This document shows, one piece after another, positions 32,983-47,534 of a DNA stretch of 64,000 nt. Positions within the stretch are counted from its first letter, which is position 1. The number at the start of each line of letters is the position of its first letter. The position numbers and the translations under genes were made by a program. Origin of the DNA: Pseudoxanthomonas sp. SL93 (GTDB taxonomy: Bacteria > Pseudomonadota > Gammaproteobacteria > Xanthomonadales > Xanthomonadaceae). The stretch spans positions 744,001-808,000 of the forward strand of contig NZ_CP113065.1 in the NCBI RefSeq assembly GCF_026625825.1. The letters run 5' to 3'. The notes under the pieces are model-generated. The model ran no database searches. It saw nothing but the letters and a program-made list of their open reading frames with translations, and had not been told where the DNA came from.

Positions 32983-34128
32983 TTAGCGGAGCAGGCTGAG
33001 CACGTTCTGCGGCACCTGGTTGGCCTGGGCCAGCATGGCCGTACCGGCCTGCTGCAGGATCTGGGTGCGGGTCAGTTCGGCGGTTTCCTTGGCGAAATCG
33101 GTGTCGCGGATGCGGCTGCGCGAAGCGGCCAGGTTTTCCGAGCTGGTCTGCAGGTTGGCGACCACCGAGGTGAAGCGGTTCTGCACCGCACCCAGGTCGG
33201 CGCGCGCGCTGTTGACCGAGGTCAGGGCAGCGTCGACGATTTCCAGGGCCTTCTGCGCGCCTTCGAACGTGGTGATGTCCAGGTCCTTGGCGAACTGCGC
33301 GGTGCCGGCCGTGGCCGCCGTCGTCGCCGCGGTCAGGCCCGAGCCGGTGACGGTGCCGCCCACGACCAGGTCGGTGTCGGCCTTGACCGAGGTCAGGGTG
33401 ACCTGGTCGGCGTCGACCGAGGCGTACACGCCGGTCTCGCCCAGCTTGGCGTTGATGGCAGAGGCCAGGCCCTTGGCGATGTCCTCACCGGTCGCGCCGT
33501 TCTTGTACTCGACATCGGCGATGGTCACACCGTTGATGGTCAGGTCAGCGATGCTGCCGTCGGCGGCGGCATCGGCGATGGCCGCACCCGTGACATCGGC
33601 GGCGAACTTCACGTTGCCCAGCGCAGCAGCCTGCGCATCGACGACCTTGTCGATGGCGATGGCCTGCGAGGCGTTGGCGCCGACCTGGAACAGCTGGCTG
33701 GTGAACGAGCCGTCCAGCAGCTTGGTGCCGTTGAAGTCGGCCTGCTTGGCAACGCGGTCGATTTCGGAGGTCAGCTGCTTGACTTCGGCGTTCAGCGCGG
33801 CGCGGTCGGACGAAGAGTTGGTGGCGTTGGCCGACTGCACCGACAGCTCACGGATGCGCTGCAGGTTGTTGCCGATCTCGGTCAGCGAACCTTCGGCGAC
33901 CTGGGCCAGCGAGATGCCGTCGTTGGCGTTGCGCACGGCAACGTCCAGGCCACGGATCTGGGTGCTGAAGCGTTCGGAGATGGCCAGACCGGCGGCGTCG
34001 TCCTTGGCGCTGTTGATGCGCAGGCCGGACGAAAGACGCTGGATGGTGGTGGCCAGTGAAGCACCGCTGCTGCTCAGATTGCGCTGGGCGTTCAGCGAGA
34101 TGGTGTTGGTATTGATGACCTGTGCCAT
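32983..34128 (-). CDS. fliC: Flagellin, second copy in the tandem
   Basis: 381 aa, the shortest of the three. The two end domains are nearly identical to the neighbours, while the middle (~170-285) differs (AADVTGAAIADAAADGSIADL; GATGEDIAKGLASAINAKLG). AAGGAG lies 9 bases before ATG. No sigma-28 promoter match was found in the 79-bp gap before it; two short palindromes occur there instead. Loss or gain of copies by recombination between the identical ends is expected to be easy. Confidence 0.96.
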   Translation of the reverse strand: MAQVINTNTISLNAQRNLSSSGASLATTIQRLSSGLRINSAKDDAAGLAISERFSTQIRGLDVAVRNANDGISLAQVAEGSLTEIGNNLQRIRELSVQSANATNSSSDRAALNAEVKQLTSEIDRVAKQADFNGTKLLDGSFTSQLFQVGANASQAIAIDKVVDAQAAALGNVKFAADVTGAAIADAAADGSIADLTINGVTIADVEYKNGATGEDIAKGLASAINAKLGETGVYASVDADQVTLTSVKADTDLVVGGTVTGSGLTAATTAATAGTAQFAKDLDITTFEGAQKALEIVDAALTSVNSARADLGAVQNRFTSVVANLQTSSENLAASRSRIRDTDFAKETAELTRTQILQQAGTAMLAQANQVPQNVLSLLR

Positions 34129-34160
34129 GAGTTCTACTCCTTAGGCGTTTTCTGCACGGG

Positions 34161-34200
34161 GGAAAAGTTTTCCAACGATCCCCGCCGTGCGGCCGGGGAT
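34161..34200 (-). other. Palindromes between flagellin copies one and two
   Basis: ATCCCCG pairs with CGGGGAT (34178-34200, extended by GCC/GGC with one bulge), next to GGAAAAGTTTTCC (34161-34173). On the minus strand it follows the first flagellin stop and could attenuate read-through. Confidence 0.5.
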
Positions 34201-34207
34201 ACCTGGT

Positions 34208-35404
34208 TCAGCGTTGCAACAAGCTCATTACGTTCTGCGGCACCTGGTTGGCCTGGGCCAGCATGGCCGTGCCGGCCTGCTGCAGGATCTGGGTGCGGGT
34301 CAGTTCGGCGGTTTCCTTGGCGAAGTCGGTGTCGCGGATGCGGCTGCGCGAGGCGGCCAGGTTTTCCGAACTGGTCTGCAGGTTGGCGACCACCGAGGTG
34401 AAGCGGTTCTGGATCGCACCGAGGTCGGCGCGCGAGCCGTTGACCGAGGTCAGGGCCTTGTCGACGATCTCCAGCGCCTGCTGGGCACCGGCGAAATCCG
34501 AGATGTCCAGGTCGGACACGAACTTCGGCACTTCGCTGGTGGCCACGGCCGTCGCCGTGTAGGTGCCGCCGGTGATGGCGACGCCGAAGGCCGCGAAGTC
34601 ACCGTTGGCATCCACGCTGGTCTTGACCGAGGTCAGTTCCAGGCCGGTGCCGGCGGCATCGACGTTGGCGTAGATGCCGGTTTCGCCGAGCTTGCCGTTG
34701 ATATGGGCGGCCAGCGCCTTGGCGGCGGCTTCGTTGGTGGCGGCAACCGAACCGGCGCTCTTGACGGTCAGGTCGTCGAAGGCGACGGCATTGCCGGCGC
34801 TGTCGGTCAGGGTCAGACCGGTGATGGTGATGTCCGCGGTGGCGGAGGCCGCCGCCGTGATGGCCAGCGTGCCGCTGTCGAACTGCGAACCGCCCAGGGT
34901 CAGGGCGCGGGCGTCGACCACCTTGTCGATGGCGATGGCCTGGCCGGCGTTGGCGCCCACCTGGAACAGCTGGCTGGTGAACGAGCCGTCCAGCAGCTTG
35001 GTGCCGTTGAAGTCGGCCTGCTTGGCGACGCGGTCGATTTCGGAGGTCAGCTGCTTGACTTCGGCGTTCAGCGCCGCGCGGTCAGAGCTGGAGTTGCTGG
35101 CGTTGGCCGACTGCACGGCCAGTTCGCGGATGCGCTGCAGGTTGTTGCCGATTTCGGTCAGCGAACCTTCGGCGACCTGGGCCAGCGAGATGCCGTCGTT
35201 GGCATTGCGCACGGCGACGTCCAGGCCACGGATCTGGGTGCTGAAGCGTTCGGAAATGGCCAGACCGGCGGCGTCGTCCTTCGCACTGTTGATGCGCAGG
35301 CCCGACGACAGGCGCTGGATGGTGGTGGCCAAAGAAGCGCCGCTGGTGCTCAGGTTGCGCTGAGCGTTGAGCGACATCGTGTTCGTGTTGATTACCTGTG
35401 CCAT
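34208..35404 (-). CDS. fliC: Flagellin, first copy in the tandem (promoter-proximal)
   Basis: 398 aa. It starts MAQVINTNTMSLNAQRNLST, with a few substitutions from the other copies (Met for Ile, Thr for Ser), and ends NVMSLLQR where the others end NVLSLLR. The middle domain (~170-300) is distinct (ITAAASATADITITGLTLTD). It is the only copy with a sigma-28 promoter match (35499-35525) and has the ribosome site GAGGAG, so it is probably the major filament protein. Confidence 0.97.
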   Translation of the reverse strand: MAQVINTNTMSLNAQRNLSTSGASLATTIQRLSSGLRINSAKDDAAGLAISERFSTQIRGLDVAVRNANDGISLAQVAEGSLTEIGNNLQRIRELAVQSANASNSSSDRAALNAEVKQLTSEIDRVAKQADFNGTKLLDGSFTSQLFQVGANAGQAIAIDKVVDARALTLGGSQFDSGTLAITAAASATADITITGLTLTDSAGNAVAFDDLTVKSAGSVAATNEAAAKALAAHINGKLGETGIYANVDAAGTGLELTSVKTSVDANGDFAAFGVAITGGTYTATAVATSEVPKFVSDLDISDFAGAQQALEIVDKALTSVNGSRADLGAIQNRFTSVVANLQTSSENLAASRSRIRDTDFAKETAELTRTQILQQAGTAMLAQANQVPQNVMSLLQR

Positions 35405-35741: not shown

Positions 35742-36341
35742 CTACGGGATGCGCCTGCGCCACGCGTCCTGCGGATCTTCCAGCAGCGACAGGCCTTCGA
35801 TGCGGTACTCGCAGCCGATCAGCGTGCGTGCTTCGAGCCCCGGCAGTTCGCTGGCGTAGATCACCAAGGCGTGCTGGTCGTCCAGCGCGCCGGACAAGGG
35901 TGCATCGCGGGTGCGTTCGAGTTCCCGTTCCAGCTGGGCGGCGGCCTGGTCCAGCGGGCCGTCCACCAGCATGAGCACACGGTTGTCGGTGATGACGATG
36001 GCGTCGCTGTAGTGGCCCCACGCGCGCGCGGGTTCGGCCAGCCGGTAGAGATCCATCATCGGCGCCGCGTACTGGCGTTCGGTCTGGACGAATTCATCCG
36101 GGCGCTCGCGTCGCAACCGCGACAGCAGTCCCGCGATGTCGACCACGGACGTGCGACACGTCAGTGCATCCAGCAGGGCGTCGCCCGATGGCTGCAGCAG
36201 CGGCAGCGTCCCGGCATCGGGTGTGGCCGTCGTGGCCGTCGTGGCGGACGAGGCAGGGCGGGGCGCCGGCGCCTGCGCTGCGCACGTCCACGGCAGCAGG
36301 CAGGCGAGCGTCAATGCGAAGGCCTTATTCGAGCTGCGCAT
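35742..36341 (-). CDS. Secreted protein of unknown function
   Basis: 199 aa with a signal peptide (MRSSNKAFALTLACLLPWTCAAQA) and a Thr/Ala/Pro linker, then a soluble domain containing SGDALLDALTCRTSVVDI and ALDDQHALVIYASELPGLEARTLIGCEYRIEG. Two Cys remain in the mature part and may form a disulphide. It overlaps the end of the preceding TPR-like gene by 17 bp, so the two are probably one operon. Not recognised. Confidence 0.72.
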   Translation of the reverse strand: MRSSNKAFALTLACLLPWTCAAQAPAPRPASSATTATTATPDAGTLPLLQPSGDALLDALTCRTSVVDIAGLLSRLRRERPDEFVQTERQYAAPMMDLYRLAEPARAWGHYSDAIVITDNRVLMLVDGPLDQAAAQLERELERTRDAPLSGALDDQHALVIYASELPGLEARTLIGCEYRIEGLSLLEDPQDAWRRRIP

Positions 36342-37179
36342 TCGCGTGGGCGGCGTCCAGGGCTTCCATCGCGTCGCGCGGCTTCAGCTTGCCGGCCTTC
36401 TCGAAGGCGGTGGCAGCGGCATCTTCCTTCTTGTCGCCATAAAGCAGCAGCAGCACGTTGGCATGCTCGACATGCGCGATGGGCGAGTCCGGCGTCAGTT
36501 TCAGCGCCGTCTTGATGTGGGATTCGGCGTCGGCGGCCTTGGCGCCATAGGTCAGTCCGCCGATCATCGCGCCGATCTTGCCGATGATCTCGGCGTGATA
36601 CAGCGCCAGGGCGGTATGCGCTTCGGCGTGCTTGGGCGCGAGTTCGAGCGTCGTGTCCAGCGAGGTGCGTACCTTGCCGGCGATGCCCTGCTTGAGTGCC
36701 TTGGCGATGCTGAGCCCCTGGCTGTAGCGGCCCAGTGCGAACGCATGGCGGTAGTGGCTGTTGGCTTCGTCCGGCAGTGCCTTCACCGCGGCTTCGGCCA
36801 GCTTGGCAGCCTGCTCGAAGCGTTTGAGCTGTTCGGCCTCGTCATCGACCAGATAAGTGGCATGGATGCCGAGGGCCTTCACCGCCACCGAAGCGCCCAG
36901 CGGGCCCAGTGCTTCGCCCGCGTCGTACGCGGCCTGGAAATCACCCCGGTGGAACGCCCGCCAGGCGTCCTGCAGGCGCTGGGCGAGATCGGCCGCGGCG
37001 ATCCCCTTGGCCGCCTTGCCGGCCGACGCGATCAACGCCTGGGCACGCTTGTCGTCGGGATAGGGTTCCAGGTCGCCCGCATGCAGCGCGGGCCAGGCTT
37101 TCTTCAATGCGTCGCCGGCGTAGGCGAAGGCTTTGGCGTCATGCGGAAATGGTGCCCACTTCGATGCTTTTCCAGCCAT
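36325..37179 (-). CDS. TPR-like helical repeat protein
   Basis: 284 aa without signal peptide. Helix-turn-helix repeats resembling tetratricopeptide units are visible, for example LQDAWRAFHRGDFQAAYDAGEALGP, KALPDEANSHYRHAFALGRY and AESHIKTALKLTPDSPIAHVEHANVLLLLYG. These usually serve protein binding. The start at MAGKASKWAPF is supported by GGGAGGG 7 bases upstream. Partner unknown; the overlapping downstream gene is the first candidate. Confidence 0.8.
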   Translation of the reverse strand: MAGKASKWAPFPHDAKAFAYAGDALKKAWPALHAGDLEPYPDDKRAQALIASAGKAAKGIAAADLAQRLQDAWRAFHRGDFQAAYDAGEALGPLGASVAVKALGIHATYLVDDEAEQLKRFEQAAKLAEAAVKALPDEANSHYRHAFALGRYSQGLSIAKALKQGIAGKVRTSLDTTLELAPKHAEAHTALALYHAEIIGKIGAMIGGLTYGAKAADAESHIKTALKLTPDSPIAHVEHANVLLLLYGDKKEDAAATAFEKAGKLKPRDAMEALDAAHANAQLE

Positions 37180-37331: not shown

Positions 37332-37751
37332 ATGCCCCTGAAGAAGAAAGCGCGCGCCAAGACGCCGGAACCCACCTTGCGCCATGTCTGGCTGGCCGGT
37401 CTCGGCCTGGTCGCCGTCGCCCGTCGCGAGGCCGTCACCGCCGCCAACGATGCGGCCGCCCGCATCGTCTCGCTGCGCGAGCAGGCCGAAAAGCTGGCCA
37501 ACGAAACGCAGGCCAACGTGCGGGATGGCATCGCCAGTGTCCGCGAGCAGGGTGAGGCCAGGGTCGGCCAGTTCAGCGCCGATGTCGAAGCTCGCCTGGC
37601 GCCGGTGCTGCTCAAGCTGGGCCTGAAGCCCGCCGGCAAGGTGGCCAAGCCGCGCGCACGCAAGCCGGCGAAGAAGGCGCCGGCCGCCAAGCGGACCTCC
37701 ACCGCACGCAAGCCGGCCGCCCGGCGTACCACGCGCCGCAGCCGCGCCTGA
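37332..37751 (+). CDS. Phasin-like protein with basic Ala/Lys tail (short)
   Basis: 139 aa from the ATG of MPLKKKARAK. HVWLAGLGLVAVARREA resembles the QVWLAGVGAFGRA segment of phasin-family proteins, then comes a coiled coil with repeated REQAEKLANETQANVRDGIASVREQG. The last ~45 residues are a histone-H1/PhaF-like tail of KPA and RKP repeats that may bind nucleic acid. Phasins coat polyester or lipid granules. A second relative lies at 44547. The assignment is by segment similarity only. Confidence 0.75.
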   Translation: MPLKKKARAKTPEPTLRHVWLAGLGLVAVARREAVTAANDAAARIVSLREQAEKLANETQANVRDGIASVREQGEARVGQFSADVEARLAPVLLKLGLKPAGKVAKPRARKPAKKAPAAKRTSTARKPAARRTTRRSRA

Positions 37752-39105: not shown

Positions 39106-39732
39106 TCACGCCACGTAGGCCTGCGTCAGCGTGTTCAGATGCACGCGCTCGGCATCGCGCAGGAAGGGCGCCACCAGCATCATCACCTGCACGATGCCCT
39201 GGCGGATGGCGGCCTGTTCGTCCTTCTCGCCGCGCGAGGCGGCGTAATTCAGCCAGAAGGTGGAAATGACCAGCACGTTGGTGGCGGTGGCGGCCAGTTC
39301 GGCGGCCGATGCGCGCATCACGCCCGCGCGGGACATGCCGCGCATTACTGCATGCGCGCTGTCGTCGGCGCGCTTCAGGATGCGGGCGAAGCGCATGCGC
39401 AGTCGCCGGTTGCGGCTGAGGATTTCGACCAGGTCGCGGTACAGGAACCGGTAGTCCCAGATGCATTCGAAGACCAGGTGCAGCTGCAGCCAGATGTCTT
39501 CCAGTCCCGGCAGGCGATCCGCCGGTGGGGTCAGGGCGGCATCCATGCGCTCTTCGTAACGCGCGAAGAGCTGCTCGATTATGTCGTCCTTGTTGCGGAA
39601 GTGGTAATACAGGTTGCCCGGGCTGATTTCCAGCTCGTCGGCGATGTGGTTGGTGGTGACGTGCGGCTCGCCCTGCGTATTGAACATCGCAAGCGAGGCG
39701 TCGAGGATCCGCTGGCGGGTGTCGCGCGCCAC
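39106..39732 (-). CDS. TetR-family regulator next to acyl-CoA-binding protein
   Basis: 208 aa. HTH at residues ~5-50 (RQRILDASLAMFNTQG, then TTNHIADELEISPGNLYYHFRNKDDII) is a textbook TetR motif. The C-terminal domain resembles the TetR_C group found with fatty-acid genes. The GTG start overlaps the stop of the acyl-CoA-binding protein gene by one base, so they are coupled and this regulator probably senses acyl-CoA or fatty-acid supply (inference). Confidence 0.9.
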   Translation of the reverse strand: MARDTRQRILDASLAMFNTQGEPHVTTNHIADELEISPGNLYYHFRNKDDIIEQLFARYEERMDAALTPPADRLPGLEDIWLQLHLVFECIWDYRFLYRDLVEILSRNRRLRMRFARILKRADDSAHAVMRGMSRAGVMRASAAELAATATNVLVISTFWLNYAASRGEKDEQAAIRQGIVQVMMLVAPFLRDAERVHLNTLTQAYVA

Positions 39733-39989
39733 TAGGCCGTGAGCTTCTTCACCAGGTCGACGTATTTCTTCTGTGCTTCCTCCTGCGGCGTGCCCTTGAG
39801 CTTGGCCCAGGCCTCGTACTTGGCCGTGCCGACGAAATCGAAGAAGCCCGGCTTGTCTCCTTTCACATCACCTTCCGAACCTTGTTTGTACAGACCGTAT
39901 AGGCGCAGCAACGTGTCGTTGTCGGGGCGTTCGGACAGGCCCTGGATGTCCTTGGATGCTTGCTCGAACGCGGTTTTGAGATCGGCCAT
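39732..39989 (-). CDS. Acyl-CoA-binding protein
   Basis: 85 aa, the normal size of this four-helix carrier. The family signatures are all there: LKTAFEQASKDIQGL, the LLRLYGLYKQGSEGDV motif (ligand Tyr/Lys), and KYEAWAKLKGTPQEEAQKKYVDLVKKL with the Lys and Trp of the binding site. It binds long-chain acyl-CoA in the cytosol. GGGAGGG lies 8 bases before ATG. It is divergent from the fatty acyl-CoA reductase gene with a 151-bp shared promoter region, so it could supply that enzyme. Confidence 0.94.
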   Translation of the reverse strand: MADLKTAFEQASKDIQGLSERPDNDTLLRLYGLYKQGSEGDVKGDKPGFFDFVGTAKYEAWAKLKGTPQEEAQKKYVDLVKKLTA

Positions 39990-40140
39990 GGATGTTCCCT
40001 CCCAGTGAACGCGGCCATCTGACCACGGGGCGCAGTACCGGTCAATCCGTGACGGGATTGTCGAACCGGGGCGGCTCTGGCAACTTAGGCCGCAGGGCGG
40101 TCGGAGGGGCTCGCCCACACAACGGAAGGGATGGGACGTC
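39990..40140. promoter_or_regulatory. Divergent promoter region of the acyl-CoA genes
   Basis: 151 bp between the start of the acyl-CoA-binding protein gene and the reductase gene. It should hold both promoters and, if the TetR protein is local, its operator. I could not pick out a confident palindrome. Confidence 0.4.
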
Positions 40141-42129
40141 ATGAGCTATTTCGTCACCGGCGCCACGGGTTTCATCGGACGTTACCTGGTCGGCAACCTG
40201 CTGAAGCGCAGCGGCACGGTGCATGTGCTCGTCCGCAAGGATTCGCAGAAGAAGTTCGATGCCATCGCCAGGAAAGCGGGCTGGGACATGAAGAAGATCG
40301 CCGTGGTGCACGGCGACATGACCAAGCCTAAATGCGGCTTGACCGCGGCGCAGATCCGCACGCTGTCGGGCAAGGTGAAGCACTTCTTCCACCTGGCCGC
40401 CATCTACGACCTGACCGCCACGCGCGAGTCGCAGCAGGCCGCCAACATCGATGGCACGCAGAACGCGCTGGATCTCGCGGCCGCGGCAAAGGCGGGCTGT
40501 TTCCACCACACCAGCTCCATCGCGGCGGCAGGCCTGTATCCGGGCATCTTCCGCGAAGACATGTTCGACGAAGCCGAGGGCCTGGATGACCCTTACCTGC
40601 GTACCAAGCACGAATCCGAAGGACTGGTGCGCAGGGAGACGCGGGTGAAGTGGCGCATCTACCGGCCGGCGATGGTGGTGGGGCATTCCAGGACCGGCGA
40701 GATGGACAAGATCGACGGCCCGTACTACTTCTTCACCCTGATCAAGAAGCTGCGCGAACTGCTGCCGCCGTGGATGCCCGTGCTGGGCATCGAGGGTGGG
40801 CGCATCAACATCGTGCCGGTGGATTTCGTCGCCGACGCCATGGACCACATCGCGCACAAGCCCAAGCTGGATGGCCATACCTTCCACCTTACCGACCCCG
40901 AACCGATGCGCGTGGGCGAGGTGCTGAACACGTTCGCGCGCGCCGGCCACGCGCCGGAAATGACCATGCGCCTGGATGCGCGCATGTTCGCCTTCGTCCC
41001 CAGCGGCATCCGCGCCGCCGTCGGCAACCTGCCGCCGGTGCGTCGCTTCATCGGCATGCTGCTGCGCGATTTCAAGATTCCGAAGGAAGTACTGAAGTTC
41101 ATCACCTATCCCACGCGCTTCGACAGCCGCGAGACCGAGCGGGCGCTGAAAGGCACGGGCATCGTGGTGCCCCGCCTGGATGACTATGCCTGGCGCCTGT
41201 GGGACTACTGGGAACGCCACCTCGACCCGGACCTGTTCATCGATCGCACGCTGAAGGGCAAGGTGCGCAACAAGGTGGTGGTCATCACCGGCGGCTCGTC
41301 CGGCATTGGCCTGTCCACCGCGCAACGCGTGGCGGAAGCCGGTGCCACGACGATCATCGTGGCGCGTGGCGAGGAAGAGCTTTTCAAGGCGCGCGACGAC
41401 ATGAAGAAGGCCGGCGGCAAGGTATTCGCCTACACGGCGGACCTGGCCGACATGGCCGATTGCGACCGCCTGGTGAAGACCGTGCTGGACGAGCACGGCC
41501 ACGTCGACATCCTGATCAACAACGCCGGCCGCTCGATCCGCCGCTCGATCGAGGCGAGCTACGACCGCTTCCACGATTTCGAGCGCACGATGCAGCTGAA
41601 CTACTTCGGCAGCATCCGCCTGATCATGGGTTTCCTGCCGAAGATGACCGAGCGCCGCAAGGGCCACATCATCAACATCAGCTCGATCGGCGTGCTGGCC
41701 AATTCGCCGCGCTTTTCCGCCTACGTCGCATCGAAGGCCGCGCTGGACGCCTTCAGCCGCTGCGCGCAGGGCGAGCTGTCGGGCAAGGGCATCAGCTTCA
41801 CCACCATCAACATGCCGCTGGTGAAGACGCCGATGATCGCGCCGACCAAGATGTACGACAGCGTGCCGACGCTCTCCCCGGAGGAGGCCGCGGACCTGCT
41901 GGTCAAGGCCATCATCGAGAAGCCCAGCCGCATCGCCACGCGCCTGGGCATCTTCGCCGCCCTGGTCAACGCGCTGGCGCCGAAGGCCTACGAGGTGGTG
42001 ATGAACACCGCGTTCGAGCTGTTCCCGGATTCGGCCGCCGCCAAGGGCGACCGCAAAGCGCTGAAGGAAGCGGCGCCCAGCCAGGAGCAGATTGCGTTTG
42101 CTTCGTTGATGCGGGGCGTGCACTGGTAG
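40141..42129 (+). CDS. Two-domain fatty acyl-CoA reductase (Marinobacter type)
   Basis: 662 aa with two Rossmann domains. The N-terminal extended SDR has TGATGFIG (residues 6-13) and Tyr152-x3-Lys156 (YLRTK). The C-terminal classical SDR has TGGSSGIG (383-390), NNAGRS, and Tyr528-x3-Lys532 (YVASK). Length, domain order and motifs such as GEMDKIDGPYYFF, IRRSIEASYDRFHDFERTMQLNYFGS and the end MRGVHW closely resemble the ~661-aa Marinobacter reductase that turns acyl-CoA or aldehyde into fatty alcohol with NADPH. The substrate is inferred from that similarity and the adjacent acyl-CoA-binding protein gene. Both catalytic triads look intact. Confidence 0.9.
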   Translation: MSYFVTGATGFIGRYLVGNLLKRSGTVHVLVRKDSQKKFDAIARKAGWDMKKIAVVHGDMTKPKCGLTAAQIRTLSGKVKHFFHLAAIYDLTATRESQQAANIDGTQNALDLAAAAKAGCFHHTSSIAAAGLYPGIFREDMFDEAEGLDDPYLRTKHESEGLVRRETRVKWRIYRPAMVVGHSRTGEMDKIDGPYYFFTLIKKLRELLPPWMPVLGIEGGRINIVPVDFVADAMDHIAHKPKLDGHTFHLTDPEPMRVGEVLNTFARAGHAPEMTMRLDARMFAFVPSGIRAAVGNLPPVRRFIGMLLRDFKIPKEVLKFITYPTRFDSRETERALKGTGIVVPRLDDYAWRLWDYWERHLDPDLFIDRTLKGKVRNKVVVITGGSSGIGLSTAQRVAEAGATTIIVARGEEELFKARDDMKKAGGKVFAYTADLADMADCDRLVKTVLDEHGHVDILINNAGRSIRRSIEASYDRFHDFERTMQLNYFGSIRLIMGFLPKMTERRKGHIINISSIGVLANSPRFSAYVASKAALDAFSRCAQGELSGKGISFTTINMPLVKTPMIAPTKMYDSVPTLSPEEAADLLVKAIIEKPSRIATRLGIFAALVNALAPKAYEVVMNTAFELFPDSAAAKGDRKALKEAAPSQEQIAFASLMRGVHW

Positions 42130-42135
42130 GCGTCG

Positions 42136-42780
42136 ATGCGGATCTCCTGGGCTAGGACGCTCGGGCTGGGCTGCGTGCTCCTGGTGGGCATCGGGGTCGG
42201 CATGTGGTTGCTGTTATCCCGCGTCTTGGGCGAGCGCGATGCTTGGCTAGCCGCGTGGACCGCTGAGGGTGCGCGTGCCGCCGCGCGGTACGAAATCGAT
42301 GCGTACCTGGAAGGCAAGTTGATACCCCAGCGGGCCATGTCGTGCGGTGCGCAGGAGTGGGTTGTTGTCCTAGCCGGTGGTGCATGCTCCTCGGAGACCG
42401 TCATCCACGCGAGATCGTCGAAGGACGGTGGCGAGGCAAGGCTGAGGCCGTCGAAAGGCGCCGGGTATCGTTGGAAGGGCGAATTCCATCGTGATATCGA
42501 CATGGTGTTGAGTCCGCAGCAGTCCGCACGCTTTCGCGAACTGGCGACGCGTGCGTTGGCGCTGCCTGACGCTTACAGGGCAGGCTGCACAGGAGTTCCC
42601 TGCCTGCAATCCGGATTCGCCGCTTGCGTCGATGGTGACTGGCGATCGGCCTATGGCCCGCCGGAGCGATTCACCGCAGGAGATCGCAGGGAACCGGGGG
42701 ACGAACTTTGGTCGGATGCTTTGGCGATTCTCCGGGTCGAGACAGCGCTCGACCCGGACGATTACGTCATTTGCATGTAA
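42136..42780 (+). CDS. Single-pass membrane-anchored protein, unknown
   Basis: 214 aa. An N-terminal hydrophobic helix (about residues 7-29, LGLGCVLLVGIGVGMWLLLS) is followed by a soluble domain with several Cys (SCGAQEW, GGACSS, AGCTGVPCLQSGFAAC). It begins 6 bp after the reductase stop, so probably in the same operon. Codon use is less GC-biased (TTG, GTT, TCG, AGA) than the neighbours, hinting at later acquisition. Not recognised. Confidence 0.7.
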   Translation: MRISWARTLGLGCVLLVGIGVGMWLLLSRVLGERDAWLAAWTAEGARAAARYEIDAYLEGKLIPQRAMSCGAQEWVVVLAGGACSSETVIHARSSKDGGEARLRPSKGAGYRWKGEFHRDIDMVLSPQQSARFRELATRALALPDAYRAGCTGVPCLQSGFAACVDGDWRSAYGPPERFTAGDRREPGDELWSDALAILRVETALDPDDYVICM

Positions 42781-42807
42781 GCGATGACGTTGCCGGGACA
42801 GGAGACT

Positions 42808-43263
42808 TTAGCCTTCGTCCGCCCACCGCAACGGCACCGCCTGCATGTTCCGCATATGCAGTGCCAGCGGCTCGATCCGCGACCACAGGAAGTCGCGCAG
42901 TTCGGCGTCTTCGACCGTCTCGGTCAGCGCACCATGGAAGCAGGCCAGCCAGCCGCTGGCTTCGTCCATGCCGATGGCGAAGGGCAGGTGGCGGGCGCGG
43001 AGCATCGGGGCGCCGTGCTTCTGCGTGAACAGCGGCGGACCGCCCAGCCAGCCGCTGAGGAATTCGAAGAGTTTCTGTTCACTGCCGTCGAGCGAGGGCG
43101 GGTGCAGGCGCCGCACCGCGGCCGCCTCGGGCAGCGCGTCCATCAGCGCGTACATGCGACGGGTCATCCGCCGCAAGCCGGCTTCACCGCCAATGCGGTC
43201 GTAGGGAGTGGTGGGGGTGGCGGGTTCGCTCATGACAGGTCGGGCGGGCGGGGCTTCCATCAT
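42808..43263 (-). CDS. Group II truncated haemoglobin
   Basis: 151 aa. 2-on-2 globin with PYDRIGGEAGLRRMTRRMYALMD, FLSGWLGGPPLFTQKHGAPMLRARHLPF (proximal His) and the Trp of helix G (ASGWLACFHGAL) at the positions typical for group II. Such globins bind O2 or NO and often serve NO or redox defence. The first of two adjacent ATG codons is used because GAGG lies 8 bases before it; a later ATG (MSEPATP) is possible. Confidence 0.92.
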   Translation of the reverse strand: MMEAPPARPVMSEPATPTTPYDRIGGEAGLRRMTRRMYALMDALPEAAAVRRLHPPSLDGSEQKLFEFLSGWLGGPPLFTQKHGAPMLRARHLPFAIGMDEASGWLACFHGALTETVEDAELRDFLWSRIEPLALHMRNMQAVPLRWADEG

Positions 43264-43323
43264 GCCGTCGGCCTCAGGCCGGACGCAGCGGCCAGGTGTC
43301 GCAGGCGGGCCGATGCGTACGCG

Positions 43324-44283
43324 TCACATGTTCCGGCACTGGCGCCAGCGGACTGGCTCGTCGCTTCCCGGCGGCGGGTTGAGCTGCACGCGGGTGGTGC
43401 GCAGGGCGGGGTAACGTTCCAGTTCAAGGCAGATCCATGGCCACACTTCCTTCTCGGTGCCGGTGCGGTCAACGCTGAGCGTCAGCTTGGTCTGCCACAC
43501 GCCGCTGCTGATGCCCGGCGTCTTGGTCAACGCCTGCAGCACGGCGCGCATCTGCTGTTCCAGTTCTTCTTCGGTCGGCTCCCGGAACGGCGCGTCAGCC
43601 GGCTTGCCGACGACAGCGGCGGGTGCAGGCGCGTTGGCCGGCGCCGGTACCACGGTGGGCGTGGGACTTGCCTGGCGGCTGTCCAGCAAATTGCCCATAG
43701 CCACCATCGCGACGGCGCCCGCCGCCACCGCGCCAAACCAGGCGATGCCGATGTGGCGCTTTGCGCGTGCCGCCGCATACCCGGTTACCTGCAGATGCAG
43801 GGCCGGTTCGATCAGCGGTTTGACCTCGGGCCAGAGCCGGGGGCCATCCAGCAACTCGATGTTGGTGCCCTGCGCGGCGTCGCGGCCTTCCTTCTCAACC
43901 TTGCCCTCGGTGGCCAGGATGCCGCCCTGTGCAGCGCCCAGACGGATGCTGGAGGCCAGCTCCACCACAGGCGCCGCGGCGATGCGGTACGCCGAACCGT
44001 GCTTGCAGGAGAGCAGCCAGCGCTCTTCACCGCGCGCCAGCAGGAAGGTGGACTGCGGTTCGCGGGATTCGTGAGGTTCCGGGCTGGCTTCGACCAGGCC
44101 GCGGCGCTCCATCGCCACGAGCACCAGCTTGGAGAACTCGCGCCAGCGCAGGCCGGACAACGCGTGCAGGCCGTAGGCCCTCTCGTCGCGGGGACGGCGG
44201 ACCATCCAGAAATAGGCGGTTGCCACAACGCCGATCACCAGGGTGACGGCCAAGCCGAGAAGCCAAATGGGCATAAATCGCAA
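43324..44283 (-). CDS. Membrane protein with degenerate Mrr-like nuclease domain
   Basis: 319 aa. One membrane helix at residues ~5-27, then a domain resembling the Mrr_cat restriction-endonuclease fold (GLRWREFSKLVLVAMERRGL; RWLLSCKHGSAYRIAAAPVVELASSIRLGAAQGGILAT), a second helix (~175-198), a Pro/Ala linker and a C-terminal domain (KTPGISSGVWQTKLTLSVDRTG). The (D/E)xK-type active site is not intact: the Lys is in SCK and the preceding acid is missing, so nuclease activity is doubtful. Function unknown. Confidence 0.7.
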   Translation of the reverse strand: MRFMPIWLLGLAVTLVIGVVATAYFWMVRRPRDERAYGLHALSGLRWREFSKLVLVAMERRGLVEASPEPHESREPQSTFLLARGEERWLLSCKHGSAYRIAAAPVVELASSIRLGAAQGGILATEGKVEKEGRDAAQGTNIELLDGPRLWPEVKPLIEPALHLQVTGYAAARAKRHIGIAWFGAVAAGAVAMVAMGNLLDSRQASPTPTVVPAPANAPAPAAVVGKPADAPFREPTEEELEQQMRAVLQALTKTPGISSGVWQTKLTLSVDRTGTEKEVWPWICLELERYPALRTTRVQLNPPPGSDEPVRWRQCRNM

Positions 44284-44546
44284 ACGCGCTTTTTGTTATT
44301 CGAATGCGCAATTCTAACCAGCCGGCCCCGGCATGTCTGTCGGGTCAACCCCTGCCTATCGCAGGCCCTTCGCAGACGGTTCATGGGCGGAAGCGAGCAT
44401 GAAAAAGCCCGCCAGTCCGAAGCCGTAAGGGGAGGGGAGCATACGTACTTCGAGTGGACTGGCGGGCCGTATCGATTGTTACGCCAACCGATGCTGCCTT
44501 GCAACAAAAATCTGTTCAGAAAACGCACTGTTCCAGTGCGTTGCCG
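44284..44546. other. Gap between the Mrr-like gene and the phasin gene
   Basis: 263 bp with no gene. It holds a long inverted repeat (44402-44467) acting as the phasin terminator and presumably the promoter of the Mrr-like gene. Confidence 0.6.
44402..44467 (-). terminator. Long-armed terminator of the phasin gene
   Basis: GCCCGCCAGTCC (44407-44418) and GGACTGGCGGGC (44456-44467) are perfect 12-bp arms with a 37-base loop that can itself pair (CGAAG/CTTCG). On the minus strand the stem is followed by TTTTTC. Confidence 0.75.
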
Positions 44547-45116
44547 TCAGCCTGCGGAAGCCTTGCGCGGCGCGCGCTTCGCCGTCACTTTCTTGACGGG
44601 TTTGCTGGTGGCCTTGGTGGCCTTGGTCGCCTTGCGGGCCGGGCTCTTGCGGGCAGCCTTCGGCTTGCCGGCGGGTACGCCGCCCAGCTTGCGCAGTTCC
44701 GCGTTCAGCTCTTCGACCCGGTCGATCAGTGTGGAGAGGTCTTCACGGCTGGGGACTTCCAGGCGGCGCAGGGCGCGCTGCACGCGTTCCTCGAACACCT
44801 TCTCCAGCCTGTCCCAGGTATCCGACGCGCGCTCGCGCGCCTGGCCGACGGTGGTTTCCACCGCATCGCGCATCACCTGCGCCTTGCCACCGGCCAGCTT
44901 GCGCGTGGTCTGCTCCAGCGACAGCCCTTCCTTCACCAGCGTCTCGAACAGCTTGGTGCCTTCGGACTGCGCGCGCCCGAACGCGCCCACGCCGGCCAGC
45001 CACACCTGCTGGGCGGATTCACCCAGGCTCTTGGACAGGCGCTCGGCCTGCGCCTGCAGGTTCTCGTTCTTGGCGGAAGAAGCGGTCTTGCGGGCGGATT
45101 TCTTCAAGGTGGCCAT
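44547..45116 (-). CDS. Phasin-family protein with basic tail
   Basis: 189 aa. SLGESAQQVWLAGVGAFGRAQSEGTKLFETLVKEG is the typical phasin (PhaF/PhaI) core; a coiled coil (KVFEERVQRALRRLEVPSREDLSTLIDRVEELNAELRKLGG) follows. The last ~45 residues are a Lys/Ala/Pro H1-like tail (ARKSPARKATKATKATSK) that may bind DNA. Phasins cover PHA or lipid granules; the tailed ones can link granules to the nucleoid. It precedes its own terminator and lies near the patatin gene. Confidence 0.88.
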   Translation of the reverse strand: MATLKKSARKTASSAKNENLQAQAERLSKSLGESAQQVWLAGVGAFGRAQSEGTKLFETLVKEGLSLEQTTRKLAGGKAQVMRDAVETTVGQARERASDTWDRLEKVFEERVQRALRRLEVPSREDLSTLIDRVEELNAELRKLGGVPAGKPKAARKSPARKATKATKATSKPVKKVTAKRAPRKASAG

Positions 45117-45184
45117 GGGGTTCCGTTGGCAGTCGAGACGAGGGATGAGGCGCCAGCGTCGGCGCGATGTCTAGAGTTTTCACA

Positions 45185-45201
45185 CCAGCGCCCCGCGCTG
45201 G
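45185..45201 (-). terminator. Possible weak terminator after the patatin gene
   Basis: CCAGCGC-CCC-GCGCTGG, 7-bp perfect stem with a 3-base loop, 11 bp after the patatin stop on the minus strand. No T-run, so weak. Confidence 0.35.
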
Positions 45202-45211
45202 CGAAGGACGA

Positions 45212-46456
45212 TCAGTTGCGTGTCGATGCCCGCCGGCGCGAAACCACCTGGTCCACGTCGTCCAGCGCGCGGCGCAGGCGGGCGGTGGTCTCGGTCATGC
45301 GCGGCGCCACGTCCAGCCCGTCCAGGATGGAGCGGTGGCGTGCGTTGACGATGTCGTCACGGTAGCGGATGCCATGCACCGCCAGCATCGGCTTGAGCAC
45401 ATCCGCACGCTTGCGCAGGTCGGCCAGCGTGTTGCGGTACGCAAGCTGGCAGACGCGGTGGCGCGAGGAGAAGCTGAAGAGGTTGGTGAAGAAGAGTTCG
45501 CTGTCGGTCGCGTTCGGCTCGAACACCAGCTGGTCGATGTCGGGGAACTGGTGCGGGTACTTTTCCATGCCGATCTGCATGCGCGACTGCAGCAGCGTAC
45601 GCAAGGTCTGCGACAGCACGGCGGGCAGGCCACCGCTGGCCAGCCCCACCTGTTCCGCCTCGTCGGCGTGCGGCGCGGCGCGGTTGGCGTCGAACGGCAC
45701 CAGCGGGTTGATGCCGATCATCAGGTCGATGTCGCGTTCCAGCACCGTGCTGGCGTGCATGGTCCGGCGCAGGGCCCCGTCCAGGAAGTGGCGTCCGCAG
45801 ATCTCCACCGGCGGATACAGCCCGGGCAGTGCGGAACTGGCCTGCACCGCGCGCGAGATGGGGACGTCGTCCCAGCCTTCCTCGCCGAAGCGCACGGCCT
45901 CCCCGCTGTCCAGGTCCACCGCCACCACGAACAGGTCGGTATCCAGCTTGCGGAAATCGTTGCTGCGGCCGCGGCGGGTGAAGATGTCGTGCAGGAAGCG
46001 CTCGACGCCCTCATTGTCGAAGATGCCGGTGGGCACCAGGCCACCGAAGCGCAGGAACAGGTCCGACCACCGCACCGCCTTGCGCGGATTGCGCAGCAGC
46101 CTGCCCAGCCAGTCGCCATAAAGCGCGGGCAGGCTGGCGGCGCGGCGCAGGTATTCGCCCACGTTGGGGCGCAGGAAGGTCTCCGGCCGGAACTCGGCGT
46201 CGTCACTGGTACCGGTGATGAAGATGCGGCACATCTCTGCCGTGCTCATGCGGTTGGCCAGGCCGGCGGCGAGGAACGCGCCTGAGCTGACGCCCACGTA
46301 GCAATCCATCCGGGTCAGGTCCAGCCCGTCCAGGGCCTCGTCCATCGCGCGCAGCGCACCCAGTTCGTACATCCCGCCGATGGGGCCGCCGCCGGCGATG
46401 GCCAGCCCGATCTTGCCGCTCCGGCCCCGCTTGCGCGCACTGTGGATCGAAAGCAT
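45212..46456 (-). CDS. Patatin-like phospholipase
   Basis: 414 aa. Serine-aspartate dyad acyl hydrolase. The oxyanion hole GGGPIGG (22-28), nucleophile elbow GVSSG (55-59, Ser57) and catalytic Asp226 in DGA are all present. It has no signal peptide, so it is probably cytosolic or at the inner membrane face. It could release fatty acids from phospholipid or storage lipid. Its neighbours (phasin, PHA-granule-region protein) suggest a part in lipid or granule metabolism, which is inference. Confidence 0.92.
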   Translation of the reverse strand: MLSIHSARKRGRSGKIGLAIAGGGPIGGMYELGALRAMDEALDGLDLTRMDCYVGVSSGAFLAAGLANRMSTAEMCRIFITGTSDDAEFRPETFLRPNVGEYLRRAASLPALYGDWLGRLLRNPRKAVRWSDLFLRFGGLVPTGIFDNEGVERFLHDIFTRRGRSNDFRKLDTDLFVVAVDLDSGEAVRFGEEGWDDVPISRAVQASSALPGLYPPVEICGRHFLDGALRRTMHASTVLERDIDLMIGINPLVPFDANRAAPHADEAEQVGLASGGLPAVLSQTLRTLLQSRMQIGMEKYPHQFPDIDQLVFEPNATDSELFFTNLFSFSSRHRVCQLAYRNTLADLRKRADVLKPMLAVHGIRYRDDIVNARHRSILDGLDVAPRMTETTARLRRALDDVDQVVSRRRASTRN

Positions 46457-46543
46457 GTACTTCCCGTCTTGACGTTACCGGCCGAGTGTAGCCGACAGAT
46501 CGGGTGCTTGCGGTGGACTGGCGTGGCCGGGATCATGCGGGGC

Positions 46544-47257
46544 ATGGCGCGAAGCAACCCCCTGATCGAACGCCTGGGCCGTCGTCTCACATGGCACCAG
46601 GCCCTGCATGATCCGGCCCGCGAGCCGCGCAACCGGCTGCGCTGGCTGCCGGAGCTTCGGCGCTGGCAGGCCGAGCGGCTGGAACGCAGCTTCGAGCATT
46701 TCCTGAACGATCCGCGACGTCGGTCAGCGGCGATGTTCTTCCTGACCGATGTCTACGGCGACCATGACTTCAGCCGCCGCGACGCCAACGTGGCCAAGGT
46801 CATGCCGATGATGCAGCGCCTGCTGCCGGCCGCGGTGCTGGGTACGGTGGCCCATGGCATCGAACTGGGCGCGCTGACCCATGCACTGGATGTGCGCATG
46901 GCCGAAGCCCTGCACCGCATCGCCCCGACGCGCCGCAAGCTGGATGCGGAACTCTACGCCAGGGCCTATCGCGAGGTGGGGCATGCGCGGTTGCGCGAGC
47001 ACCAGATCGACCTGATCGCCGAAGTCGGCGTGGGCCTGGCGCGCGCGGTGAAGACGCCGGGCGTGGCCACGCTGCTCAAGCTCTCGCGCGGCCCGGCCAA
47101 GGCGACCGGCCTGGGCGAACTGCAGGGGTTCCTGGAGCGTGGCTTCTCCGCGTTCGCCGCGCTGGGCGACGGCAAGGCCTTCGTGCGGGACATCGAGGAC
47201 GCCGAGCGCGAGGCGTCGCGCCGGCTGTTCGACGGGCATCCCGATCCGTTCGGCTGA
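46544..47257 (+). CDS. Conserved-looking protein of unknown function
   Basis: 237 aa from the ATG of MARSNPLIERLG; it is divergent from the patatin gene. All-helical, Arg/Ala/Leu-rich, no signal or membrane segment. A striking motif is FFLTDVYGDHDFSRRDANVAKVM (split for reading: FFLTDVYGDHDF then SRRDANVAKVM). It has Asp/His-rich spots (YGDHD, GHARLREHQID). I do not recognise a named family. Its place between the patatin and PHA-region genes hints at a lipid-related role. Confidence 0.75.
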   Translation: MARSNPLIERLGRRLTWHQALHDPAREPRNRLRWLPELRRWQAERLERSFEHFLNDPRRRSAAMFFLTDVYGDHDFSRRDANVAKVMPMMQRLLPAAVLGTVAHGIELGALTHALDVRMAEALHRIAPTRRKLDAELYARAYREVGHARLREHQIDLIAEVGVGLARAVKTPGVATLLKLSRGPAKATGLGELQGFLERGFSAFAALGDGKAFVRDIEDAEREASRRLFDGHPDPFG

Positions 47258-47258
47258 A

Positions 47259-47534
47259 TCAGTCGAACTTTTCCGACAGCACGCGGCGTATCTCCACTTC
47301 GATCGGCCCCTTCATGGCCGACAGCAGGAAGCCGAGGGAAGCGGTGACGTGCAGCTGCTGGGGAAGCAGTGCGATATGGCCATCGACGCCGGAGCGGTTG
47401 AAGTTCAGCGTGTCACCGTCCCAGCCATAGTCCATGTCGAAGCGCTCGGCCAGTTTCTTCGCCACTTCCTCCACGGCCTTGCGTGCCTGTTTCGGCGTCT
47501 TGGTGTGGTTGTGCAGGATGTCGATGCTGGCCAT
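47259..47534 (-). CDS. PHA-granule-region family protein
   Basis: 91 aa. It matches the small family found in polyhydroxyalkanoate gene regions: MASIDILHNHTKTPKQARKAVEEVAKKLAERFDMDYGWDGD, NFNRSGVDGHIAL and the LGFLLSAMKGPIEVEI end. It resembles a small alpha/beta protein of unknown chemistry associated with PHA granules. GGAG lies 6 bases before ATG. Convergent with the unknown helical gene. No PHA synthase gene is in the window. Confidence 0.85.
   Translation of the reverse strand: MASIDILHNHTKTPKQARKAVEEVAKKLAERFDMDYGWDGDTLNFNRSGVDGHIALLPQQLHVTASLGFLLSAMKGPIEVEIRRVLSEKFD

Follow-up and report, generated by a model that had tools for sequence, protein, structure and literature searches.

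A Pseudoxanthomonas gene neighbourhood as the probable accessory part of a wax-ester storage system

A 64-kb stretch of Pseudoxanthomonas sp. SL93 (C1:744001-808000 of a 3.85-Mb single-contig genome), called the window below, carries a set of genes around an AcrB-type fatty acyl-CoA reductase that an initial annotation, made from the sequence alone, had described as a possible neutral-lipid storage module. Gene calls and family scans recovered every gene named there at its assigned position, and two members absent from that annotation, a TPR gene and an FFLEE-family gene, were added. The members are given below in order of position. The starts of the acyl-CoA-binding protein (ACBP), second phasin-like, PHA_gran_rgn, FFLEE and TPR genes were placed by eye and by comparison with relatives and are putative.

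36325..37179, minus strand: TPR protein of 284 aa, predicted cytosolic lipid carrier, with a fold resembling those of BstC, TatT and the TPR domain of PTPIP51/RMDN3
37332..37751, plus strand: second phasin-like protein with a basic Ala/Lys/Arg tail, sub-threshold for PF05597, divergent from the TPR gene
39106..39732, minus strand: TetR-family regulator, PF13972 type (148.1 bits)
39732..39992, minus strand: ACBP, 86 aa (PF00887, 100.4 bits)
39993..40140, no strand: divergent ACBP/reductase promoter region, 148 bp, with the inverted repeat GTCAATCC-N6-GGATTGTC
40141..42129, plus strand: AcrB-type (Maqu_2507-type) two-domain fatty acyl-CoA reductase, 662 aa (NF005539/PRK07201)
44547..45116, minus strand: tailed phasin (PF05597, 150.2 bits; TIGR01837, 124.3 bits against 94.7)
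45212..46456, minus strand: patatin-like hydrolase (PF01734, 94.1 bits; GVSSG and DGA motifs in the translation)
46544..47257, plus strand: FFLEE-family protein (NF047641, 225 bits against 55), all-helical predicted model
47259..47534, minus strand: PHA_gran_rgn protein, 91 aa (TIGR02610, 108.8 bits against 40.25)
Outside the window, PF03007 match at C1:1093880-1094674: WS/DGAT wax synthase, 500 aa (TIGR02946)

The reductase matches NF005539 (PRK07201) over residues 1-662 with 1014.7 bits (cut-off 549) and contains both SDR domains, PF07993 and PF00106; this full-length match identifies the enzyme, earlier recognized as a two-domain Marinobacter-type fatty acyl-CoA reductase, as AcrB-type. It would turn acyl-CoA into fatty alcohol. 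PRK07201 has been used as the profile for AcrB, which catalyzes this conversion with NADPH (PMC11948995), and MAQU_2507 has been named as the fatty acyl-CoA reductase of wax-ester synthesis (PMC10351704). In Marinobacter, double deletion of the acrB and farA homologues nearly abolishes wax esters, while single reductase deletions in strain CP1 raised wax esters, with no decrease (PMC6308636). All five relatives of the reductase at 90-95% identity (L002-L005, L020) are labelled Pseudoxanthomonas. In one genome (G037:C28:10968-12934) the two SDR domains lie in adjoining frames, either because the gene is truly split or through a sequencing error.

Neither a wax synthase nor a polyhydroxyalkanoate (PHA) synthase lies in the window, as had been noted, and both are present elsewhere in the genome, with matches at C1:1093880 and C1:488031. 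The former, the genome's sole PF03007 match, scores 418.1 bits against TIGR02946 (cut-off 309.95) and contains PF03007 and PF06974; its translation carries HHSYADG, which conforms to the HHxxxDG motif, and its two PDB matches are the solved wax synthases 7nxg and 6chj. We infer that it is the wax-ester synthase of this genome. Its gene is flanked by a DNA photolyase gene on one side and an OmpA-family gene on the other; the reductase is ~307 kb away, and tblastn over the surrounding 17 kb found no other module gene.

The joint presence of these two enzymes was examined in a fixed sample of 121 genomes of the order (this genome and 120 others), each at least 90% complete and searched for every protein family of the module. 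The reductase and WS/DGAT sets are identical: both enzymes occur in 80 genomes, and the remaining 41 have neither; the reductase tally takes in four split or partial cases (G025, G037, G105, G114), and 76 genomes are counted by strict cut-off. In the mixed genera g16 (two genomes with the pathway, two without), g37 (three, two) and g18 (eleven, one), reductase, synthase and TPR gene switch together. The TPR gene, scored with profile A2 at E ≤1e-8, occurs in 76 of the 80 wax-pathway genomes (the four without are G004, G015, G033 and G093) and the FFLEE gene in 51, and neither is found in the other 41. ACBP is present in 77 of the 80 (three without) and in 15/41. Phasin, counted only above cut-off (95 genomes, with ten others that have weak matches only scored absent), is present in 80/80 and 15/41, and PHA_gran_rgn, scored at E 0.001 (110 genomes), in 78/80 (two without) and 32/41; above cut-off the latter is found in 105 genomes (75/80 and 30/41). 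Fisher tests on these sets take no account of phylogeny, and we place no weight on them.

Co-conservation around the reductase, whose absence in relatives had been named beforehand as speaking against a module, was studied in the best 80 of 582 confirmed reductase loci, with module genes searched nearby by tblastn, and the module genes persist. TetR is found near the reductase in 73 loci, ACBP in 72, phasin in 63, the patatin gene in 47, TPR and FFLEE in 42 each, PHA_gran_rgn in 40 and WS/DGAT in 14, while other neighbours are FHA (37), MsrQ (25), Mrr (24), MsrP (23), WYL (3) and globin (3). Contig ends depress these counts, and in the 50 loci with more than 8 kb either side of the reductase they become TetR 46, ACBP and phasin 45 each, patatin 34, TPR 32, PHA_gran_rgn 30, FFLEE 29 and WS/DGAT 9, with FHA 27, MsrQ 19, MsrP 18, Mrr 17, and WYL and globin 1 each. 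FHA is thus about as common overall as FFLEE (27 vs 29 of 50) and drops off only in distant loci. In the 17 long loci below 70% reductase identity, TetR remains in 15, ACBP and phasin in 14 each, TPR in 11, WS/DGAT in 9, patatin in 7, and FFLEE and PHA_gran_rgn in 5 each, and the flanking genes are reduced to FHA 2, MsrP 1, MsrQ 1 and Mrr 0. At 70-80% identity the TPR gene is near the reductase in just 4 of 16.

Gene order also differs among relatives. Three loci (L054, L058, L076) run WS/DGAT, TPR, phasin, TetR, ACBP, reductase, patatin, FFLEE, with PHA_gran_rgn last in L076; five others (L065, L066, L073, L074, L075) retain several members in an altered order, and in L063 ACBP and TetR are inverted. 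WS/DGAT lies close to the reductase in 14 relatives, 13 of which also have at least two further module genes there; in the 121-genome sample the two enzymes are neighbours in at least 24 genomes. Because the flanks fade below 70% identity while members stay, in changed orders, the data argue for a functional tie over plain synteny; the case is strongest for TetR, ACBP, phasin, TPR and WS/DGAT and weaker for patatin, FFLEE and PHA_gran_rgn.

As the genome encodes a WS/DGAT and the two enzymes occur in an identical set of 80 out of 121 genomes, storage of neutral lipid through fatty alcohol in phasin-coated bodies is the best reading, and we consider it probable (about 0.78) that the region supplies the accessory genes for storing wax ester. 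In such a system, acyl-CoA held by ACBP would be reduced to fatty alcohol by the AcrB-type reductase, and WS/DGAT, distant here and beside the reductase in other lineages, would condense the alcohol with another acyl-CoA into wax ester. This product would gather in phasin-coated lipid bodies, which the basic tails may tether to the nucleoid; the TPR protein would probably move lipid from the membrane to the growing body or back, the patatin hydrolase would mobilize the stored ester, and TetR would probably repress the divergent ACBP-TetR and reductase promoters. Gene identities, joint occurrence and proximity are observed here, and the activities, the localization, the TPR role and the regulation are predictions. 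The initial annotation had proposed neutral-lipid storage, as wax ester or PHA-like polymer, through fatty alcohol and phasin-coated bodies; its wax-ester half is well supported, and its PHA side has a possible counterpart in a class III PhaC encoded elsewhere in the genome.

This PhaC (C1:488031-489077, TIGR01836, 548.8 bits) is the genome's sole TIGR01836 match and lies outside the window, with a PhaE gene just upstream (221.9 bits, cut-off 154.95); no PHA synthase was found within the module locus, and PhaC_N (PF07167) has no match in the genome. The pair makes it conceivable that the region is mainly a PHA granule locus, in which the phasins and PHA_gran_rgn serve the class III synthase and the reductase is incidental, and this explanation draws further weight from genomes with PhaC and without the reductase, 29/32 of which have PHA_gran_rgn and 15/32 phasin. 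We nevertheless regard it as unlikely. A PHA synthase, either class I/II (near-full-length PhaC_N, 12 genomes, with shorter weak matches set aside) or class III, occurs in 61 of the 121 genomes, and phasin follows the reductase and WS/DGAT (80/80) more strictly than it follows PhaC (44/61). In the 51 wax-pathway genomes in which no class I/II or III PHA synthase was found, phasin is present in all 51 and PHA_gran_rgn in 49 (46 above cut-off), as against 29 and 29 (29) in the 29 genomes with both pathways and 0 and 3 (1) in the nine with neither; in the 32 with PHA synthase only, PHA_gran_rgn is above cut-off in 29. Since phasin is found in 51/51 and 0/9, respectively, phasins go with the wax pathway also in genomes in which no PHA synthase was found. 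Moreover, phaC is ~295 kb from the reductase, and no module gene was found in the 17-kb stretch around it, the one match there being to the reductase SDR domain only.

It is also quite unlikely that the main end product is triacylglycerol, or that the fatty alcohol is made for another use. It is established that WS/DGAT enzymes are bifunctional, which favours triacylglycerol, but a reductase of the alcohol-forming type is strictly paired with the synthase in our sample. The literature gives a similar picture, with acrB found 94% of the time in genomes that have WS/DGAT (PMC11948995). That the neighbourhood reflects inherited synteny with no functional tie at all is very improbable: FHA, MsrQ, MsrP and Mrr do persist in the long loci, though nearly all of these cases are closer relatives, and below 70% identity they are nearly gone while TetR, ACBP, phasin, TPR and WS/DGAT mostly remain; varying gene orders and joint presence or absence across genomes also disagree with it.

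The two phasins announced by the initial annotation differ in standing. The tailed phasin is over the cut-offs of its families, whereas the gene at 37332-37751 is phasin-like only, with 25.6 bits for PF05597 against 28.8 and 20 bits for TIGR01837 against 94.7; the PHA-granule-region protein described alongside them was borne out by its TIGR02610 match. The C-terminal tail of the main phasin is rich in Lys, Ala and Pro, and by the composition of the last 30 residues such an end is shared by 57 of the 63 phasins near the reductase in relatives, the exceptions being L028, L059, L060, L066, L067 and L075. By analogy with PhaF of Pseudomonas putida, in which such a tail binds DNA and helps share bodies at division, the tail here may do the same. 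The phasins of this genome may serve both polymers, because it also carries class III PhaE and PhaC. Taken across the sample, the counts suggest that the so-called PHA phasins and PHA_gran_rgn are general storage-body proteins, and their presence alone is therefore not readable as PHA production.

The null result with PhaC_N proved misleading, as the class III model TIGR01836 identified a PHA synthase, and the idea of phasins without a PHA partner in the genome was dropped. In whole-genome searches PF07167 gives weak, partial matches at best to class III PHA synthases, and PHA claims in this order that rest on PF07167 alone would mislead. As separate observations, the class III PhaE of this genome (L086:6470-8020), 516 aa in length, carries an extended tail rich in Ala, Lys and Arg and matches the phasin family TIGR01837 weakly (19.4 bits), and in eight genomes of genus g3 (G012, G022, G039, G046, G062, G072, G077, G087), which have no reductase or wax synthase, the phasin gene adjoins PHA_gran_rgn and a class III PhaC is encoded elsewhere in the genome.

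The top structural matches of the predicted TPR model are lipid-type TPR proteins, and it shares the fold of the PTPIP51 TPR domain. PF21033 does not match the window protein at E 0.01; it matches 10 of 27 relatives (best 2.4e-5) and is part of the precomputed annotation of all 120 homologues listed out of 5868 found. No signal peptide or membrane anchor was seen in the protein by eye. Its gene has a phasin match within 2.5 kb in at least 56 of 76 genomes and WS/DGAT within 4 kb in at least 34, and these neighbour counts, with a third of at least 33, are lower bounds; 15 of the 76 TPR genes are near none of phasin, WS and reductase among the matches listed. The model suggests that the protein probably carries lipid, substrate or product, between the membrane and the growing body. 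A bolder proposal, which we put forward as tentative and rather doubtful, is that a cytosolic lipid-transfer protein with the RMDN/PTPIP51 fold is dedicated to the building of wax bodies in this order, as a core partner of the wax pathway, and is paired with a nucleoid-binding phasin. If true, the TPR partner would resemble in its role the lipid-transfer proteins of eukaryotic contact sites, and it offers a direct test case for bacterial use of a PTPIP51-fold lipid-transfer protein.

To our knowledge, the loading, coating and dividing of neutral-lipid bodies in bacteria are poorly known, and genes that follow the wax pathway so closely in their occurrence supply named candidates for each step. 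The earlier statement that no described system has this set was too strong, as the combination of AcrB and WS/DGAT has been described before (PMC11948995), and the Marinobacter wax-ester pathway has the same reductase profile (PRK07201/NF005539) and WS/DGAT; here the reductase gene has those for ACBP, TetR, phasin, TPR, patatin and FFLEE linked to it, in a comparison that covered neighbourhoods outside Marinobacter. In metagenomes from coastal sediments, WS/DGAT adjoins genes for ACBP, a Maqu_2507-like reductase and a PHA-system protein on two betaproteobacterial scaffolds, and another scaffold has a WS/DGAT cluster with a phasin (Galvan et al. 2023, PMC10351704). These clusters have WS/DGAT, ACBP, a Maqu_2507-like SDR protein and a PHA-system protein or phasin in common with ours. 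Neither TetR nor patatin is mentioned in the main text of that paper (TPR and FFLEE were not looked for there), and a phyletic test of the present kind is found here and not in its available text.

PHA granule genes have the phasin and PHA_gran_rgn families in common with the module, which, in contrast, keeps both in wax-pathway genomes where a PHA synthase was not found. With PTPIP51/RMDN3, BstC and TatT the TPR protein has its fold in common, and its relatives the PF21033 annotation, but here the protein is tied to wax synthesis and its lipid binding is putative. Our searches, which left subscription papers largely outside, found no literature joining wax ester synthase with Xanthomonadaceae and none naming FFLEELY; two papers mention Pseudoxanthomonas together with wax ester. 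In the texts available we found no precedent for the full set with its strict phyletic tie and phasin retention without PHA synthase, nor for TPR or FFLEE as wax-pathway partners, although no search joined RMDN/PTPIP51 with wax esters. What looks new is therefore the accessory set, above all the TPR protein, the enzyme pair being already known.

The coupling of ACBP and TetR proposed in the initial annotation agrees with their one-base overlap, in which the ACBP stop and TetR start share a base (TAGTG), and with their persistence near the reductase. The closest solved structures to TetR are 3nnr and 3rh2. A 136-aa ACBP open reading frame reaching 40142 was rejected as an over-extension, and the start was corrected to 39992. 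The inverted repeat in the 148-bp gap coincides with two back-to-back -35-like boxes, and in our reading the gap holds two putative divergent sigma-70-like promoters. The ACBP promoter pattern, written as a regular expression, is found in 44 of 67 ACBP/reductase intergenic regions; in L006, L008, L009, L011, L014 and L015 the two -35-like boxes are, by eye, spaced much wider.

An operator was sought in 125 regions, comprising the ACBP/reductase gaps of 66 relatives and the window together with TPR and WS upstream regions, and no exact dyad shared across the three kinds of region stood out. Two dyads with 6-base half-sites reach 3/125 regions, one in ACBP/reductase gaps only and one in TPR regions only, compared with a highest value of 1 or 2 in each of ten letter shuffles; this support is too small to name either as the TetR operator. 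The suggested control by TetR in response to acyl-CoA thus gained nothing from the scan, which found no operator common to the module promoters, and TetR control of these promoters is likely by position only.

The patatin hydrolase, earlier named as such and upheld by its PF01734 match and its place near the reductase in over half of the 80 loci, is a candidate lipid mobilizer. Two other genes look like bystanders, namely an open reading frame at 42136, found near the reductase in 0/80 loci, and the globin gene (3/80). Inside the module, positions 43324-44283 encode an Mrr_cat-like protein (PF04471, 37.3 bits), whose N-terminus looks hydrophobic by eye; this is the gene counted above as Mrr (24/80 loci and 0/17 long loci below 70% reductase identity). 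Beyond the TPR gene, positions 32983-35404 contain two tandem, near-alike flagellin-like genes (381 and 398 aa, by eye).
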